From the NCBI GenBank assembly GCA_944382905.1, contig CALWNU010000002.1:1-64000 (forward strand): a stretch of 64,000 nt of DNA, in the 5' to 3' direction. Under the pieces are notes generated by a model. That model made no database searches. It worked only from the letters and a program-made list of their open reading frames with translations, and was not told the origin of the DNA. The position numbers and the translations under genes are program-made. This document shows, piece by piece, positions 1 to 38,243 of this stretch (its first letter is position 1; each line of letters starts with the position of its first letter). Source of the stretch: an uncultured Clostridia bacterium (GTDB lineage: Bacteria > Bacillota > Clostridia > Oscillospirales > Ruminococcaceae).

Positions 1-72
1 TGGGAAAGAAAAATGCCGGGTCTTGATGGCGTAGTAGCCATGGTCGATGCCGATGTTCATGGTTTTGCTCAT
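1..72 (-). CDS. ParM/StbA-like actin-type segregation protein, 5' end only
   Basis: Only the first 20-24 codons lie in the window; the gene runs off the left edge. The N-terminus MNIGIDHGYYAIKT resembles the start of actin-fold ParM/StbA-family partition ATPases, which are common on plasmids and integrative elements of gut Clostridia and open with a phosphate-1 strand of the form (N/D)IG(I/V)D.G. Two in-frame ATGs exist, at 72 (MSKTMNIG) and 60 (MNIG). A GAAAGG motif directly precedes the first, so the second has the better, though long, spacing. Such genes help partition a mobile element. With so few residues the family call is a recognition of the opening motif only. Confidence 0.5.
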   Translation of the reverse strand, partial: MSKTMNIGIDHGYYAIKTRHFSFP

Positions 73-182
73 CCTTTCTTGGCTGTTGTTGAAAACTTGG
101 TTTCCTGCTGGTTAAGAGCGAAGCGTATCTTGTTCTTTCCCAGCTGGTAAAGTATTTAGGGGGGAGAGTGTGAGAGGGGGGA

Positions 183-216
183 GCGCAAAAAACTCCCCGG
201 CCTGCCAGCCGGAGAG
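183..216 (-). terminator. Rho-independent terminator
   Basis: Near-perfect 11-bp stem (AACTCTCCGGC pairing with GCCGGGGAGTT) followed on the minus strand by six T. It would end leftward transcripts arriving from 220-480 before the ParM-like gene. Confidence 0.7.
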
Positions 217-234
217 TTCCTGAAAAAGGGCGCA

Positions 235-477
235 CTACCCCCTTGTATTTTGAGGGCTTGATTTTGTGCCGTTTTGGGCTTTCGTCAATCTATCTATGAA
301 CCTGCCGGAAACTTCTACACATTTGACAACGGGGAAAAGATCCGCAGAACGCAAAAAAGCGGGGCCTCCGACCTGAAAAATCAGGCGGAAGCCCCGCTTG
401 TGGGGTTTCTCTGCGGATTTTGCCTTGGACATCCACGGTAAAACCGTTTTCCGGATTTTCTGTCCGAAAGCCCGCAA
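235..477 (-). CDS. Doubtful 80-residue hypothetical ORF
   Basis: An 80-codon frame, ATG at 477 to TAG at 235, with no convincing ribosome-binding site. Its middle is interrupted by a terminator-like hairpin (353-399), which argues against efficient expression of the whole frame. The translation has no recognisable domain, signal peptide or membrane segment; it is basic and of low complexity near its start. It ends 19 bases before another terminator (183-216). It could be a relic or a chance frame over structured DNA, listed because nothing else occupies the interval. Confidence 0.2.
   Translation of the reverse strand: MRAFGQKIRKTVLPWMSKAKSAEKPHKRGFRLIFQVGGPAFLRSADLFPVVKCVEVSGRFIDRLTKAQNGTKSSPQNTRG
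353..399 (-). terminator. Strong hairpin with U-tract, inside larger inverted arms
   Basis: AAGCGGGGC pairs with GCCCCGCTT and the stem extends inward to a loop around ATTTTT. On the minus strand six T follow. An outer pair of arms (TCCGCAGA at about 341 and TCTGCGGA at about 409) encloses it, giving a nested structure about 75 bases long. Confidence 0.6.
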
Positions 478-492
478 ACCCGCATGAATACT

Positions 493-528
493 AAGAAAAA
501 AGGGTTGACATCTTTTTTGTCAACCCTT
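493..528 (-). terminator. Terminator downstream of ssrA
   Basis: Perfect 10-bp stem AGGGTTGACA/TGTCAACCCT with an A-rich loop and a T-run on the minus strand, starting three bases after the CCA end of tmRNA. Confidence 0.85.
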
Positions 529-530
529 CA

Positions 531-877
531 TGGTGGAGGCGAGGAGAATCGAACTCCTGTCCGAAAACCTATCCACACAGGCATCTCCGAGTGCAGTTTG
601 TCTTTTGCATTCCCTTACCCAGTCGCCGACAAACAGGCTAAAAGGCTTGGTATCCTCCTATACATCATCCGCGCGGGAGGCGCCTTGCGGTGACGTTCAC
701 CACTCATCGACGCCCAATCCAAGTCCGTGGTCCTACCTGGTTGGACGGCTGCTTAATTAAGCAGCAAAAGCAACGTTATTGTTGTCGTTTAATTTGAAAA
801 TGTCAGGTTTTTAAGAGGTCCTGCGCCTCTACTCGCTTCCCATGCTTCAAAATCCCCGTCGAGACCATTGCGCCCCC
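531..877 (-). ncRNA. ssrA: tmRNA (transfer-messenger RNA)
   Basis: The 5' end GGGGGCG (877-871) pairs perfectly (one G-U) with CGCCTCC next to the encoded 3' CCA (533-531), and the T-arm GGTTCGATTC-type loop is present near 545-560. The tag frame runs from 789 to a UAA at 757-759 and encodes NDNNNVAFAA, giving the full tag ANDNNNVAFAA with the tmRNA-carried alanine. tmRNA rescues stalled ribosomes together with SmpB, and smpB lies 23 bases upstream. No promoter is visible between them, so ssrA is probably processed from the smpB transcript. Length is 347 nt, normal for the family. Confidence 0.97.
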
Positions 878-1436: not shown

Positions 1437-2036
1437 TTACAGTTCGCTGCGGCCTTCCAGCGCACGGTACAGCGTCACTTCATCCGCGTATTCCAGATTG
1501 CTTCCCACCGGGATGCCGTAAGCCAACCGGGTCACCTTGACCCCCAGCGGTTTGATCAGCCGGGACAGATACATAGCGGTGGCTTCCCCCTCCACGGTGG
1601 GGCTGGTCGCCATGATCACTTCCTGGATTTTCCCTTGGCCCACCCGCTGCAGCAGCTCTTTGACATACAGCTGATCCGGCCCAATACCATCCATGGGGGA
1701 AATCAGCCCATGCAGCACATGATACAAACCGTGGTATTCCTTCGTCCGCTCAATGGCCATCACATCCCGGGGTCCTTCCACCACGCACACGACGCTGGCG
1801 TCCCGAGACGCATCCTGGCACACGGGGCATAGTTCCCCGTCGGTCAAGTTCTGGCAGACCTTGCAATGCTTGATTTTTTCCTGCGCTTCGATAATGCTGT
1901 TGGCAAAATCCAACGCCTTTTCCTTGGGCAGATTCAATACATAAAACGCCAGCCGCTGGGCGGATTTTTTCCCAATGCCCGGCAGGCGCTCAAAATGCTC
2001 GATCAGCCGGGTCAGGGGCAATACATTGTACCCCAT
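1437..2036 (-). CDS. recR: Recombination mediator RecR
   Basis: A 199-residue protein of family-standard length. It opens with the helix-hairpin-helix segment (RLPGIGKKSAQRLAFY), followed by the four-cysteine zinc finger (CKVCQNLTDGELCPVC, about residues 58-73) and a Toprim domain containing VVEGPRDVMAIER. RecR works with RecO/RecF to load RecA on gapped DNA. It starts four bases after the ybaB stop and is the third gene of the classical dnaX-ybaB-recR operon. The start ATG lacks a strong ribosome-binding site of its own, which fits translational coupling to ybaB. Confidence 0.97.
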   Translation of the reverse strand: MGYNVLPLTRLIEHFERLPGIGKKSAQRLAFYVLNLPKEKALDFANSIIEAQEKIKHCKVCQNLTDGELCPVCQDASRDASVVCVVEGPRDVMAIERTKEYHGLYHVLHGLISPMDGIGPDQLYVKELLQRVGQGKIQEVIMATSPTVEGEATAMYLSRLIKPLGVKVTRLAYGIPVGSNLEYADEVTLYRALEGRSEL

Positions 2037-2040
2037 GGCG

Positions 2041-2391
2041 TTAGAACAGCCCCGGCATGCTCATACCGCCGGAGATCTTTTCCATTTCTTTGTTGGACTC
2101 CTCTTCGATTTCCCGGATCACTTCGTTGACCGCGGAAATCACCAGATCCTGCAGCATCTCGATGTCCTCCGGGTCCACCACTTCCGGCTTGATCACCAGG
2201 CTCTTGAGTTCTTTTTTCCCCGTCATGACCACTTCCACCGCGCCGCCGCCAACGCTGACCGTATGCTCTTTGGCTTCCAGTTCAGCCTGCACCCGGGCGA
2301 TTTCCGCCTGCATTTTCTGGGCTTGTTTGATCATTCCCTGCATATTGCTCGGCGCACCGCCGCCGAATCCCTGTGGTAATCTTGCTTTCAT
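2041..2391 (-). CDS. YbaB/EbfC nucleoid-associated protein
   Basis: A 116-residue protein with the YbaB signature: a glycine/methionine-rich N-terminus, the helix NMQGMIKQAQKMQAEIARVQ and the conserved core (GGGAVEVVMTGKKELKSL). The family forms dimers that bind DNA without strict sequence specificity; a role in recombination or nucleoid structure is proposed but not settled. It sits between dnaX and recR exactly as in Bacillus (yaaK). The spacing to recR is four bases. Nothing is unusual apart from a slightly glycine-rich start. Confidence 0.95.
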   Translation of the reverse strand: MKARLPQGFGGGAPSNMQGMIKQAQKMQAEIARVQAELEAKEHTVSVGGGAVEVVMTGKKELKSLVIKPEVVDPEDIEMLQDLVISAVNEVIREIEEESNKEMEKISGGMSMPGLF

Positions 2392-2457
2392 CTTGACCGT
2401 TCCTTTCTATTTTGTCTGTGCCCTCCAGCGGCAAAACCGCCGCCCCTTCAGGCATGT

Positions 2458-4119
2458 TCAGGTTTCTTCTACTGGGATTCCCGCCTGCCGGGCGGATTCC
2501 ATCAGCCTTTCCAGCGGATCCGGCTGCTGTTGCGCCGGCTGTTCCTGGGGCCGGTAAGGGCCAAGCCGGTACCGTTTTCCCGTCTGCGCCATTAGCGCGT
2601 CACGCAGGGAATCTTTTGCAAATGCGTTTTCCCGGATCAGTTTGAAAAACAATTCGTTTTTCGCATCAATGAGGATCAAATCCCCCGCCTCATACGCATC
2701 GGACTGCTTGAGCGCCGCGAACAGCGGCGGGTTGCTTTTTATCAGCCGGCCCAGCACCTCCTGCCACGGACCAAACCGTTTCGCCGCGGAAAGGTCCACT
2801 GCAGAATCTCCGGCTGGACGCGGACTGGCGGCCGGCGCTTGTTCTTGGGCCGGCTCTTCCCGGCGCTGCCGCGGCTTTTCCCGGTTCTGCTGCACACTGC
2901 CGGCCGGATCTGGTTCTAATCGGGAATTCGGCGGCAACTCCTGCTCCGGGACAGAGGTAACCGGTACGGCGGCGCCGCTGCGCACCGCCGCTTCCAGCGC
3001 CTCCAACCTAGCCAACACCGCTTCTGCGGACTGGTCCATCACTGGATTGCAGACCCGAACGGCGGCCATTTCCAATTCCGTGCGGCGGTTGGCAGTCCGG
3101 GACATCCGGTTTTGCGTCTCCTGCAGAACCGACAGGGTGTATAAAATCCCCGACAGGTTCATCTGTCCGGCCAGCTGCCGCATCTCTTCCAGTTCTTCCG
3201 GCAACGCAACGACCAAACGCTCCGGGTGCTCCACCGTTTTGATCAACATCAAATCCCGGTAAAAAGCCACCAGGTCGCCGCAAAGCCGGTCCATATCCAT
3301 GGACTGCTCATGCAGATTCCCAATCTGTTCCAGTGCAGAAGCGGTATCCTGTTTCGCAAACGCCCGGGAAAGCGCCAGCAGATGGCCCGATCCCGCCAAA
3401 CCCGCCGCCTGCGCCACCGATTCCGCCGTTACTGCGCCGCCGCGGGAAATACATAAATCCAGCAGAGAAATGGCGTCCCGCATTCCGCCGTCCGCCAATT
3501 TGCCGATCAGCAGGCCTGCGCTGTGTTCCAGCTGTACCCCTTCCTGCCGGGCGATTTTTTCCAGATATCCTGCAATATCCTCACTGCTGATCCGCCGGAA
3601 GTCAAACCGCTGGCACCGGGACAGAATTGTCGCCGGCACCTTGTGTACCTCTGTCGTCGCCAAGATAAACAGCACATGAGGCGGTGGCTCTTCCATGATT
3701 TTCAGCAATGCATTGAACGCGCCAGTACTCAGCATATGGGTCTCATCAATAATGTAGACCCGGTATTTCACCTGTCCCGGCGCAAAATAGGCGTCTTCCC
3801 GCAGCTGGCGGATATTGTCCACCCCGCTGTTGCTGGCCGCGTCGATCTCCAGCACGTCCATCACGCTGCCGTCGTCGATACCGCGGCAGATCTCACAAGT
3901 CCCGCAGGGATTGCCATCCACCGCGTTGGGGCAGTTCACCGCTTTGGCCAAAATCTTGGAACAGGTAGTCTTTCCCGTCCCACGGGACCCGGTGAACAGA
4001 TAAGCGTGGGCGGTTTTGCCTGTTTTCACTTCATTTTGCAGCGTGCGGGTAATCTGCGCCTGACCCACCACATCGTCAAACGTTTTTGGCCGGTATTTGC
4101 GATACAATGCCTGGTACAT
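2458..4119 (-). CDS. dnaX: DNA polymerase III subunits gamma/tau
   Basis: A 553-residue clamp-loader ATPase that, with delta and delta-prime, loads the beta clamp on DNA. It begins MYQALYRKYRPKTFDDVVGQ and carries Walker A GSRGTGKT (about residues 44-51), a four-cysteine zinc motif (CPNAVDGNPCGTCEIC), a DETH Walker B variant of the usual DEVH, and sensor 1 ILATTE. The last 200 residues are a proline/glutamine/alanine-rich linker and a small C-terminal domain as in tau. The frame is open further upstream, but the family-standard start at 4119 is chosen; the extension would run into the SRP RNA gene. Confidence 0.96.
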   Translation of the reverse strand: MYQALYRKYRPKTFDDVVGQAQITRTLQNEVKTGKTAHAYLFTGSRGTGKTTCSKILAKAVNCPNAVDGNPCGTCEICRGIDDGSVMDVLEIDAASNSGVDNIRQLREDAYFAPGQVKYRVYIIDETHMLSTGAFNALLKIMEEPPPHVLFILATTEVHKVPATILSRCQRFDFRRISSEDIAGYLEKIARQEGVQLEHSAGLLIGKLADGGMRDAISLLDLCISRGGAVTAESVAQAAGLAGSGHLLALSRAFAKQDTASALEQIGNLHEQSMDMDRLCGDLVAFYRDLMLIKTVEHPERLVVALPEELEEMRQLAGQMNLSGILYTLSVLQETQNRMSRTANRRTELEMAAVRVCNPVMDQSAEAVLARLEALEAAVRSGAAVPVTSVPEQELPPNSRLEPDPAGSVQQNREKPRQRREEPAQEQAPAASPRPAGDSAVDLSAAKRFGPWQEVLGRLIKSNPPLFAALKQSDAYEAGDLILIDAKNELFFKLIRENAFAKDSLRDALMAQTGKRYRLGPYRPQEQPAQQQPDPLERLMESARQAGIPVEET

Positions 4120-4157: not shown

Positions 4158-4374
4158 AAAACAGACAGGGCACCATGTGCGCAACGCCGGTTCTCTCACA
4201 AGGGCACACAGGTTGACTGCGGCGCACAAGAACAGCCGCTTAATGCTGCTCGGTTCCCCGCCTGACATGGTTCACAGCGCCTTGTCGCACAGGACCCGCA
4301 TCCCCTTGTGACAGGACTGGCGTCATCCTGTCTGTCGTGGCAGCTGCGGGCTAAAAAAGAACCGCAGCAATCCT
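4158..4374 (-). ncRNA. ffs: Signal recognition particle RNA (4.5S/scRNA type)
   Basis: The minus strand holds the conserved domain IV: AUGUCAGG, a CGG-GGAA-CCG stem with GGAA tetraloop, then AGCAGCAUUAAG (about 4240-4272). Compared with the common UCC-GGAA-GGA stem the base pairs have changed while pairing is kept, a sign of a real structured RNA. Flanking arms pair outward (CACAAGGG with CCCTTGTG; ACAGACAGG with CCTGTCTGT, near 4335 and 4162) and the last stem is followed by four T. A consensus promoter sets the probable 5' end near 4374; exact ends are uncertain. The RNA binds Ffh to target nascent membrane proteins. The location upstream of dnaX matches Bacillus subtilis scr-dnaX. Confidence 0.92.
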
Positions 4375-11658: not shown

Positions 11659-11667
11659 TGATTTTGT

Positions 11668-11772
11668 CCTCATCTCCCGGAATGTTCCGCAGGATTTGGC
11701 ACCTTCTACTCAAACGAGTCCGGTTGCTGGGCTTCACAGGGCCTGTTCCCTCCGCCGCTCTGGATAAGGTAA
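11668..11772 (-). promoter_or_regulatory. SAM-I riboswitch (S-box) upstream of metK
   Basis: The minus strand reads CTTATCCAGAG...GGCGGAGGGA, CAGGCCCTGTGAAGCCC, CAGCAACC and AAGGTGCCAAATCC in the order of the S-box aptamer, including the k-turn and the SAM-binding core. A rho-independent terminator follows, so SAM binding should terminate transcription before metK. Confidence 0.96.
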
Positions 11773-12592: not shown

Positions 12593-12616
12593 CAAAGGTG
12601 CAAATAAATTTGCGCC

Positions 12617-12745
12617 GTTTCTTTCATCCGGACTATACCGTCGGTCCCGGAATCGCACCGGATCAGCTGCCAAACGGCAGGTCGCGGACTTGTGGCTTTC
12701 GCCCATCACCGCCGGTGGGGAATCGCACCCCGCCCCGAAACAGAC
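12617..12745 (-). promoter_or_regulatory. FMN riboswitch (RFN element)
   Basis: Conserved RFN blocks appear in order on the minus strand: TTCGGGGCGGGGTG, ATTCCCCACCGGCGGT, GAAAGCC, GTCCGCGACC, TGATCCGGTG, ATTCCGG, CCGACGGT, and AGTCCGGATGAAAG. FMN binding should favour the following terminator and switch ribU off. Confidence 0.97.
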
Positions 12746-12762
12746 TTTTGATTTCGTTAGGT

Positions 12763-31573: not shown

Positions 31574-31606
31574 GTCTATTCACCTCCTGAAAATATCAAT
31601 CCATAG

Positions 31607-31641
31607 CAAAAGGGCTCTTTCCAATGCCTTGGAAAGAGCCC
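31607..31641 (-). terminator. Attenuator in the rplJ leader
   Basis: Perfect GGGCTCTTTCCAA/TTGGAAAGAGCCC stem with a GGCA-type loop, followed by TTTTG on the minus strand. It lies between the L10 leader and the rplJ ribosome-binding site. Confidence 0.85.
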
Positions 31642-31654
31642 ATGAAATCCATTT

Positions 31655-31732
31655 CATTCTGGCTACGTTTCCTCGGCAGGCAGGGAAAACTCCCTTTTAT
31701 GCATCAGCACCTGCTGTCTTTGGAATCGGACA
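31655..31732 (-). promoter_or_regulatory. L10 leader (autoregulatory RNA)
   Basis: The minus strand contains AGACAGCAGGTGCTGATGC, AAGGGAG/TTCCCT and CCTGCCGAGG, the conserved kink-turn and stem blocks of the Firmicutes L10 leader. Binding of L10(L12)4 should promote the downstream attenuator. Confidence 0.88.
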
Positions 31733-31740
31733 GCTTATAT

Positions 31741-31769
31741 AGTATATTGGATTTTTCCCCTTTTGTCAA
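31741..31769 (-). promoter_or_regulatory. Promoter of rplJ-rplL
   Basis: TTGACA (31769-31764), 17-bp spacer, TATACT (31746-31741) on the minus strand, located between rplA and the L10 leader. Confidence 0.85.
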
Positions 31770-35573: not shown

Positions 35574-35586
35574 GGGAGGGCGCAGG

Positions 35587-36411
35587 ATGGATAACCGTCC
35601 CATCGGCATCTTTGACTCCGGTTTAGGGGGACTGACGGCGTTAAAAGAGCTGCGCCGCCTGCTTCCCAATGAAAGTTTTGTGTATTTTGGGGATACCGGC
35701 CGGGTTCCCTATGGCGCGCGCAGCCCGCAGACGCTGCGCCGGTTCGCCCGGGAAAACATCCGGTTTCTCCAGCATTACGATGTCAAAATGATCGTCGCGG
35801 CCTGCGGCACCATTTCTTCGATTCTGTCGGAGGATCCCGCATGGGATCCGACGTTTCCCTTCACCGGCGTGCTGCGTCCGGCAGCGGAAGCAGCCTGCCG
35901 TGCTACCCGCTGCGGCAGGATCGGCGTAATCGGCACGTCCGCCACCATTCGCAGCGGCTCTTATGAGCGGATCATCCGGCAAATCATGCCCAACGTACAG
36001 GTTTTTTCCCGCGCGTGCCCACTGTTTGTCCCGCTGGTGGAAAACGGATATCTCGAGGAACAAAACCCGGTCACCGAACTGGTGGCGCGGGATTATCTTT
36101 CCGGCCTGGCCGCCGAACGGCCGGATACGCTGATTCTGGGCTGCACCCATTATCCGCTGATTGCCCCGGCAATCCGCCGCGTGATGGGAGACGGCGTCAC
36201 GCTCATCGACCCTGGCAAAGAAACGGCGGCGGCGGTGCAAGCTATGCTGTCTGCCCGCGGAATCTGCGCGGATGGCAGTCAAACCAGCGACACCCGTTAT
36301 TTTGCTTCCGCCGATACAGAGGATTTTGGCACGATTGCGGCGCGTTTTTTGGGCGAGCCGCTGGAAAGCGCGGTAGAATTGGTAGAAGTGGACGCGTTAA
36401 GCCGAGAATAG
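35587..36411 (+). CDS. murI: Glutamate racemase
   Basis: A 274-residue enzyme making D-glutamate for UDP-MurNAc peptides. It begins IGIFDSGLGGLTALKELRRL and has both catalytic cysteines, in VAACGTISS and LGCTHYPLI. The first motif is normally ACNTA/S, so the asparagine after the cysteine is replaced by glycine. The start lies 13 bases after the ddl stop behind GGGAGG. The gene is also spaced only 13 bases before the DUF1934 TTG, so ddl, murI and DUF1934 form one run. Confidence 0.94.
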   Translation: MDNRPIGIFDSGLGGLTALKELRRLLPNESFVYFGDTGRVPYGARSPQTLRRFARENIRFLQHYDVKMIVAACGTISSILSEDPAWDPTFPFTGVLRPAAEAACRATRCGRIGVIGTSATIRSGSYERIIRQIMPNVQVFSRACPLFVPLVENGYLEEQNPVTELVARDYLSGLAAERPDTLILGCTHYPLIAPAIRRVMGDGVTLIDPGKETAAAVQAMLSARGICADGSQTSDTRYFASADTEDFGTIAARFLGEPLESAVELVEVDALSRE

Positions 36412-36424
36412 AAAGGAAATTCCA

Positions 36425-36859
36425 TTGAAAAAGGATGTTATGATTACCCTCAAAGGGACCCAGTTTTCCGACGAGGACTCGGATTGTGTGGAATTGACCA
36501 CCGTTGGTTCGCTGTACCGGCGCAACGGCGTGTACTATTTATGCTACGACGAGTCGGAAGCCACTGGGTTTGACGGGTCAAAAACAACTTTAAAAATTGA
36601 GGGGGACCGGCGGGTCACCATGCGCCGCAGCGGGGAAAACCTGTATTCCCAGCTGATTATCGAAAAAGGACAACGGCATCAGTGCGTTTATGACACCGGG
36701 TACGGTACTTTAACCCTCGGCATTTCCGGGGATCAGATCATCAGCTCCCTAGATGACAACGGCGGGCATTTACAGGTGCGGTATACGCTGGATATCAATG
36801 CAAGCATGGCCAGCGAAAACGAGCTTTTGATCCAGGTAGAAACCTATTCCCCCTCGTAA
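36425..36859 (+). CDS. DUF1934 beta-barrel protein
   Basis: A 144-residue protein of the DUF1934 (YwiB-like) family, a lipocalin-like barrel of unknown function. Family-typical phrases are VMITLKGTQ and YDTGYGTLTLGI, followed by VRYTLDIN. Initiation is at TTG after AAAGGAAA. In many Firmicutes this gene lies immediately before argS; here it precedes an ArgS-like protein lacking the catalytic core, which keeps the context but not the enzyme. Confidence 0.88.
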   Translation: MKKDVMITLKGTQFSDEDSDCVELTTVGSLYRRNGVYYLCYDESEATGFDGSKTTLKIEGDRRVTMRRSGENLYSQLIIEKGQRHQCVYDTGYGTLTLGISGDQIISSLDDNGGHLQVRYTLDINASMASENELLIQVETYSPS

Positions 36860-36877
36860 ACAAAAGGAGGGTGCGCC

Positions 36878-37618
36878 ATGGAAACACAGCCGGTTGGCAT
36901 CGCCGAAACGGCGGAATATGTGCGCCGCCTGCTGTCGCAGAAAGCGCGGCAGGCTTTCCCCGCGTGTGCGATTGCCGCAGTTCCCGTGGACGCCAGCAGT
37001 CCGGACAAAACGGGATTTTTTTCTTCCAGCCTCCCTTTTCAGATTGCCGGCAAGGCGGGGATTGCCCCTGAGCAGGCCGCAATATGCCTGGCCGATCAAA
37101 TCCAGCTGGACAGGGCGGTCTTTTCCCGTGTTGAGCCGGCAGGTGGATTCTTGCATTTTTATCCGGCGGATCCATGGTATACCGCCTGCGCTGCCGCGCT
37201 GCCGCTGCCAGACACATCGCTGTGCTGGGCGGCGACCGAAGAGGATTTCGCCCGCTGTTTGCCTCGTACGCCGGCGCAACGGCAGATTCAGCAAACCTTC
37301 CTTCGGTTGTGCAGCGTTTTGCGCAACTGCAAGGCCGAAGGGATGCTTTGCCTGCCCTGCCCGGACGCCTGGCTGTCCTTGCTTTGCGCGCCGTCGGAAC
37401 AGCGGCTGATCTTTTCCCTTTGCCGCTTGGCGGAATCCGACCCCGCTGCCAGGACTGTCCTGCTGCTGGAGACGGCCCGCAGCTTTTCTTATTTTTACGA
37501 CACGCTGCGCATCTGGGCCGCGGATCCCCGCCGCACTGCTGCGCGCGCGGCTTTGTCTTATTCTTGCGGGGTGTGGATGCAAACCAAAATGGAACAAGCC
37601 GGGCTATTTCCCCGCTGA
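36878..37618 (+). CDS. ArgS-like protein without catalytic domain (DALR protein)
   Basis: A 246-residue protein made of the two ends of arginyl-tRNA synthetase. Residues 1-100 resemble the N-terminal tRNA-recognition domain (segment SLPFQIAGKAGIAPEQAAIC, then RVEPAGGFLHFYPADPW, the counterpart of the PGFINF strand). Residues 165-246 resemble the DALR anticodon-binding helices (ETARSFSYFYDTLRIW and the closing GVWMQTKMEQAGLFP). The Rossmann core with HIGH and KMSKS is missing, so it cannot aminoacylate. It follows DUF1934, the usual neighbour of argS, by 18 bases. A role in tRNA(Arg) binding is an inference; a pseudogene is less likely because the frame is clean and the ribosome-binding site AAAAGGAGG is strong. 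Confidence 0.75.
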   Translation: METQPVGIAETAEYVRRLLSQKARQAFPACAIAAVPVDASSPDKTGFFSSSLPFQIAGKAGIAPEQAAICLADQIQLDRAVFSRVEPAGGFLHFYPADPWYTACAAALPLPDTSLCWAATEEDFARCLPRTPAQRQIQQTFLRLCSVLRNCKAEGMLCLPCPDAWLSLLCAPSEQRLIFSLCRLAESDPAARTVLLLETARSFSYFYDTLRIWAADPRRTAARAALSYSCGVWMQTKMEQAGLFPR

Positions 37619-37647
37619 TTGGACAAGCCCGGTAAAAATTTTTTAGG
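37597..37647 (+). terminator. Possible terminator at the end of the ArgS-like gene
   Basis: CCGGGCT (in the last codons) pairs with AGCCCGG near 37627-37633, followed by TAAAAATTTTTT. The long loop makes it uncertain. Confidence 0.4.
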
Positions 37648-37709
37648 AATTGCAAAAATCCGGCGGGATTTTGGCACTAATAGAATGAACCCTTAAGGGT
37701 GGTGACAGC

Positions 37710-38243
37710 ATGAATATCGACGCCCAGCTGGTGGAAAAAGCAAAAACAGGCGACCGGGACAGTTTTGCCGCGCTGTACGAACTGGTACAGGATGATTTGT
37801 ATAAATATGCCCTGTATTCGCTGGGGAACGTACACGATGCGGAGGACGTGGTGGCGGAGACTTTTTTGGAAGCGTTCCGCGGCATTCCCAAGCTGCGGGA
37901 GGCCGAAGCGTTCCGGGGATGGATTTTTAAAATTCTATCCATCCGTATCAAACGGCGGATTTCCCGGTATGTCAAAGAGAAAAACCAGCTGCAAATCGAA
38001 GATTTTTATTCCGACCCGGCGCTCCGCTTTGAGGGAATGGACGAAACGGCCATCGCCCGGACCGACCTGCTGCAAGCGCTGTCGTCTTTATCTGCGCAGG
38101 AAAGGATGATCCTTTCGCTGTCGGTGCTATATGGCTACACGACAAAACAAATTTCTCAGATGCTGCGCTGCCCCCACGGGACAGTCAGCTCCAAGCTGCA
38201 CCGCAGCCTGCAGAAACTGAAAAAACAAATGGAAGAGAGGTGA
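37710..38243 (+). CDS. ECF-type RNA polymerase sigma factor
   Basis: A 177-residue sigma-70 family protein with only regions 2 and 4. Region 2 (about residues 20-90) includes AEDVVAETFLEAFRGIPKLR; region 4 (about 118-172) includes the helix-turn-helix YTTKQISQMLRCPHGTVSSK. Such factors direct RNA polymerase to stress or envelope genes and are held by a membrane anti-sigma. The next gene, six bases on, encodes a single-span membrane protein that may do this. No sigma-specific autoregulatory promoter could be recognised upstream. Confidence 0.92.
   Translation: MNIDAQLVEKAKTGDRDSFAALYELVQDDLYKYALYSLGNVHDAEDVVAETFLEAFRGIPKLREAEAFRGWIFKILSIRIKRRISRYVKEKNQLQIEDFYSDPALRFEGMDETAIARTDLLQALSSLSAQERMILSLSVLYGYTTKQISQMLRCPHGTVSSKLHRSLQKLKKQMEER

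Follow-up and report, generated by a model that had tools for sequence, protein, structure and literature searches.

Non-catalytic proteins derived from aminoacyl-tRNA synthetases are already known, and their origin is seldom visible. The kinds closest to the protein described here are NrtL, which is found in actinobacteria, and vertebrate DALRD3. DALRD3 is the partner of METTL2 in vertebrates, bringing tRNA(Arg) for m3C modification, and it has been suggested to stem from an arginyl-tRNA synthetase (ArgRS) in which catalysis was lost and tRNA binding kept (PMC7237682). In E. coli ArgRS, the N-terminal domain recognizes A20 of tRNA(Arg) by way of F36, Q40, A78, and N84, with F82 stacking (PMC8975779), and this contact is described as the first recognition step, ahead of the anticodon (PMC9976931).

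The gene considered here lies in a window of 64,000 nucleotides (the whole stretch of DNA that was analysed) from an uncultured member of the Ruminococcaceae, and is an open reading frame of 246 codons beginning with ATG (Table 1). The original prediction, made from the letters of the window, was of an ArgS-like N-terminal domain joined directly to a DALR domain without a catalytic core, and Pfam and alignment agree. Arg_tRNA_synt_N is recognized above its cut-off (E 3.2e-5, residues 16-94), DALR_1 is below its cut-off in the window protein (E 0.004, residues 137-235) and above it in three orthologs (E 5e-7 to 1e-5), and Pfam finds no match to the PF00750 core. When aligned with complete relatives, the likeness to ArgS ends at about residue 107 and resumes at the DALR domain after a linker of some 25 residues, and neither HIGH nor KMSKS is present; 148 of the 225 columns conserved in complete ArgS of the family's original type (type A, see below) fall in the missing part, these two motifs included. 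Because the core is absent and the protein scores 23.8 bits against the argS equivalog TIGR00456 (cut-off 261.65), it is not an arginyl-tRNA synthetase. Five cysteines (residues 104, 145, 151, 161, and 230) are invariant in the four core-less proteins found, which have 9 to 12 cysteines each.

Table 1. Features of the core-less gene and its surroundings in the window
Feature	Position	Strand	Basis
Racemase gene (murI-type)	35584..36411	+	PF01177 E 2e-16; murI-DUF1934-argS order in relatives
DUF1934 gene, usual upstream neighbor of argS in the family	36425..36859	+	PF09148 E 3e-35
Ribosome-binding site AAGGAGGG	36864..36871	+	Sequence
Core-less ArgS-derived protein, 246 aa	36878..37618	+	ORF, Pfam, orthologs, alignment, predicted structure
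ArgS N-terminal domain, residues 14-107	36917..37198	+	PF03485 E 3.2e-5; structure match to ArgRS
Residues 90-93 GFLH, counterpart of E. coli ArgRS G81-F82-I83-N84	37145..37156	+	Alignments; E. coli contacts PMC8975779
Short linker, residues 108-131, replacing the catalytic core	37199..37270	+	Alignment with complete ArgS
DALR anticodon-binding-type helical domain, residues 132-241	37271..37600	+	DALR_1 E 0.004; orthologs; structure match
ECF-type sigma factor gene, downstream, probably its own transcription unit	37710..38243	+	Sigma70_r2 and r4; upstream stretch conserved in four species

The start codon follows the DUF1934 stop by 18 nt, and the strong ribosome-binding site that had been pointed out is indeed a good one in the window, and weaker in the relatives; together with the selection described below, it suggests that the protein is translated. 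The gene is overlapped on the minus strand (36770-37655) by two long ORFs, of 275 and 286 aa; GC-rich codon use seems to account for them, and we did not take them as genes. The stretch at 37650-37709, upstream of the sigma factor gene, is strongly conserved across four species (the window, L003, L033, and L034), ends in ...CACTGATAATATGAACCCATAAGGGTGGTGACA before the ATG in the relatives, and may carry a promoter and leader of its own. The window also contains ordinary RNA elements, all on the minus strand: a tmRNA (531-877), a small SRP RNA (4203-4301), a SAM riboswitch (11667-11770), an FMN riboswitch (12612-12746), and an L10 leader (31597-31741).

The Ruminococcaceae have two types of argS, which we refer to as type A (the original and commoner) and type B (the second). 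Type A scores low with PF00750, at most about 104 bits, and the usual order in the family is murI-DUF1934-argS; among the first 40 type-A rows, inspected by eye, 37 lie directly behind DUF1934, and in the other three the two genes are on different contigs, so DUF1934 is the common argS neighbor it was said to be. Type B scores 244 to 291 bits and is located away from DUF1934, with the exception of genome G074, in which a type-B argS stands directly behind DUF1934 (L080, G074:C4:57327-62713, at 1450-3746), an arrangement suggesting that one type replaced the other in situ; scores in other species of that genus resemble those of type A. The search for a full argS elsewhere, proposed as a check, finds one in the window genome (a draft in 52 contigs), at G000:C46:13252-14295, and it is of type B, with N and DALR parts of its own. 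Because type A normally lies behind DUF1934 and the type-B gene is on another contig, the core-less gene occupies the type-A site, which makes it the positional ortholog of the argS that is usual in the family. We note that ArgS should be essential, and that neither type was found with PF00750 or the type-A profile in G044 and G273 (both 99-100% complete) or in G079, where ArgS may have diverged too far or may fall in an assembly gap or a masked stretch.

The displacement of argS by a second type, together with a graded series of reduced forms, is the most informative part of the analysis, and was invisible to the original prediction. A type-A profile search covered 66 genomes, 61 of them with type B. 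Across 20 genera in which type B is present, the old argS has usually been lost altogether (about 50 of the 61 type-B genomes examined in the family). Both types are whole in G030, G384, and G206; G010, G097, and G185 have a shrunken type A of 402-440 aa that lacks HIGH and KMSKS; the core-less form is found in the window's genus; and in G007 the N-domain alone is left, at 97 aa. Among 58 type-B genomes from other families of the order there was no further clear remnant, and short A-like pieces in G400 and G465, both at contig ends, were not accepted as clear cases. In a ribosomal-protein tree, read without regard to its support values, type-A-only genera, such as those of G051 and G011, stand between the reduced lineages. 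A FastTree tree of the N and DALR columns places the G010 shrunken form beside the remnants of the window's genus (0.88) on long branches, a grouping that may reflect long-branch attraction; the type-B tree also has G010 near this genus (0.59; 0.94 with G030), and the trees thus hint that the two may share part of their history. Because the argS trees put G010 near the genus and the ribosomal-protein tree groups it with G045, we place the apparent number of independent reductions at two to four, and not firmly at four.

Within the genus, the gene is intact in four of five genomes (the window genome and three orthologs), and the fifth, G149, was rejected as a true absence as its contig stops inside DUF1934. 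The three orthologs are 44-45% identical to the window protein, amino-acid identity across the four species is about 44-69%, and the order racemase, DUF1934, core-less gene, and sigma factor is common to all four. The two-domain reading frame is well beyond chance, because three further species have it in the same gene order; this is also the outcome of the survey of conservation with DUF1934 that had been suggested. The draft state of the genome, in 52 contigs, might raise the suspicion that a complete argS has only seemingly lost its core, through faulty sequencing or assembly, a reading to which we assign practically no weight, as it is refuted by the core-less architecture being at the same place in four separate genomes of the genus, with divergent sequence in each. 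Outside this group, a genome_contigs scan with the window protein gave one match, in Enterovibrio (34% over 60 residues), and no match was found in phages and no relative in viral contigs.

The second rival explanation is that the gene is slowly decaying after its displacement, in a transient stage before loss and with no present function. The absence of the old argS from most type-B genomes, the series of ever shorter forms, and the bare N-domain of G007 are all consistent with this, and so are the omega values (pairwise NG86), which are 0.23 to 0.37 in all pairs for the core-less gene and 0.03 to 0.18 for three neighboring genes; in the closest pair, omega of the core-less gene is about 3 to 9 times that of the neighbors. 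Against it, omega in this closest pair is 0.26 (bootstrap range, 0.18 to 0.39), and because of this value we take selection to be current. Moreover, random placement of equal numbers of substitutions introduces 4.8 to 6.1 stops on average and leaves the frame stop-free in <1% of trials, and yet all four orthologs lack internal stops in spite of their divergence. The core-less protein is thus under purifying selection at present, weaker than that on its neighbors, and the signs of decay in relatives that would have spoken against the original prediction are not seen within the genus. Decay without function therefore seems improbable to us.

A predicted structure unlike ArgS domains had been named beforehand as one of the two outcomes that would refute the original prediction, and here, as with decay, the result favors the prediction. 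An AlphaFold2 model with full-length relatives in the alignment (pLDDT 92, pTM 0.90) has as its best structural match ArgRS in the E. coli ArgRS-tRNA complex (5b63_C; Z 19.1, 2.9 A over 222 residues), with residues 7..246 matched against 1..574, so that the match spans both ends of the enzyme. As a control, we modeled the protein from an alignment of the four core-less sequences only, leaving out full-length ArgS. This model is of lower confidence (pLDDT 64, pTM 0.45), but its N-domain still matches ArgRS (Z 11.6, 2.2 A over 98 residues), as do residues 132-244 to Campylobacter ArgRS (Z 9.5, 103 residues). Because these matches persist without the full-length rows, the predicted ArgRS identity of both domains is solid; their mutual placement in the model is not, because it depends on the full-length ArgS rows and the remnants alone give the lower pTM. 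With Foldseek alone, no match reached E 0.001, although ArgRS entries occupy its top rows.

The original prediction also suggested that the protein could bind tRNA(Arg) as a regulator or chaperone, and for such binding the residues that would contact tRNA give mixed support. The F82 counterpart (residue 91, Phe or Tyr) is kept in all four species, as is Gly90, and the three relatives have GYLN at residues 90-93; N93, the N84 counterpart, is kept in three of the four, the window protein having His. The GD[FY] signature of the D-loop pocket is lost, as are the YAH of the YAHARI helix and the C-terminal PEM from the DALR domain, which retains R143, S146, F203, Y207, A222, and R223. Of 77 highly conserved type-A positions present in the remnant, all four species share just 20 without change, which, like the rapid evolution of the gene, weighs against the tRNA-binding reading. 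In its favor, the net charge of the DALR part is +1 to +6 in the remnants and -4 to +1 in type-A enzymes. A20 is present in the tRNA-Arg genes found, as judged from D-loops inspected by eye; we also note that the D-arm of one tRNA-Arg(CCU) is unusual (GTTAAATGGATATAAC; L198, G000:C52:22440-22600, at 46-120).

These patterns bear on the main rival explanation, which is that the selected protein has a role in protein-protein contact, with type-B ArgS, DUF1934, or another partner, and that the old tRNA surfaces are disused. The loss of several tRNA-contact motifs while R143, C145-S146, E174, L177, F203, Y207, and A222-R223 stay would fit such a role, and rapid evolution is usual once a role changes. 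However, three of four species retain the F/Y91-x-N93 pair in the A20 pocket, and the DALR part has become more basic, not less; and because DUF1934 outlasts the old argS in many lineages, persisting where that gene is gone, a strict partnership with DUF1934 is unlikely. We consider a protein-contact role rather unlikely overall, although less so than decay. The kept A20-pocket residues, the basic DALR part, and the presence of A20 in tRNA-Arg genes suggest instead that the remnant may still make contact with tRNA, and most likely with tRNA(Arg), but would not charge it.

We therefore propose a history in which type-A argS was displaced by type B, lost its core, and was kept as a remnant. This is very probably correct, and is based on computed evidence of ancestry, position, the second synthetase, core loss, purifying selection, and predicted fold. 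As for the order of events, we infer that an ancestor of the genus gained a type-B argS, which would have taken over charging of tRNA(Arg), and that the old gene, freed from aminoacylation, could then lose its core (about 330 codons) with the reading frame kept. The product would be a D-loop-binding N-domain fused to a DALR domain, which might grip tRNA non-catalytically by its D-arm and anticodon arm, and the bound tRNA may be protected, sequestered, or presented, by analogy with DALRD3 in vertebrates. The protein is probably one that handles tRNA rather than an enzyme, although for tRNA binding as such we regard the chances as evenly balanced. Taken as a whole, we lean slightly toward the reading that a displaced argS has retained its ends to bind tRNA(Arg) without catalysis. 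That displaced synthetases have repeatedly and independently been retained as core-less tRNA(Arg) clamps, with a function that the new synthetase does not provide, is a more tentative suggestion, and we are equally hesitant about the reading of both the D-arm and anticodon arm of tRNA(Arg) that such a clamp would entail.

What makes these genomes useful is that a single bacterial family displays the stages through which a non-catalytic synthetase derivative arises. Some members have two intact synthetases, others an old enzyme whose core is wrecked, and others again a core-less form under selection, an isolated N-domain, or nothing at all of the old gene. Should the core-less protein prove to bind tRNA(Arg), it would reveal a role of ArgRS beyond charging and would provide a minimal two-domain tRNA reader for experiments.

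Compared with ArgRS itself (TIGR00456; PF03485-PF00750-PF05746), the remnant has in common the N-terminal and DALR domains and the gene neighborhood of the usual argS, whereas the core with HIGH and KMSKS is wholly lacking. With DALRD3 it shares a DALR domain without a synthetase core, but the N-terminal part of DALRD3 has no recognizable domain (PMC7237682), whereas that of the remnant is an ArgS N-domain; and DALRD3 partners a methyltransferase, whereas no methyltransferase gene is seen beside the core-less gene. The nearest named kind is NrtL (NCBIfam NF045898, 327 aa), which like the remnant is ArgS-derived and too short for a full core. We found no paper on NrtL, and nothing useful on argS displacement, in the literature. 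The window protein is about 80 aa shorter than NrtL and matches only its N part (15.2 bits; cut-off 340), and the orthologs are likewise below the cut-off, whereas the shrunken forms of G010 and G185 match NrtL nearly end to end (E 4e-18 and 7e-12). The window protein is thus a smaller and fully core-less variant of an NrtL-like kind, with a traceable evolutionary path.
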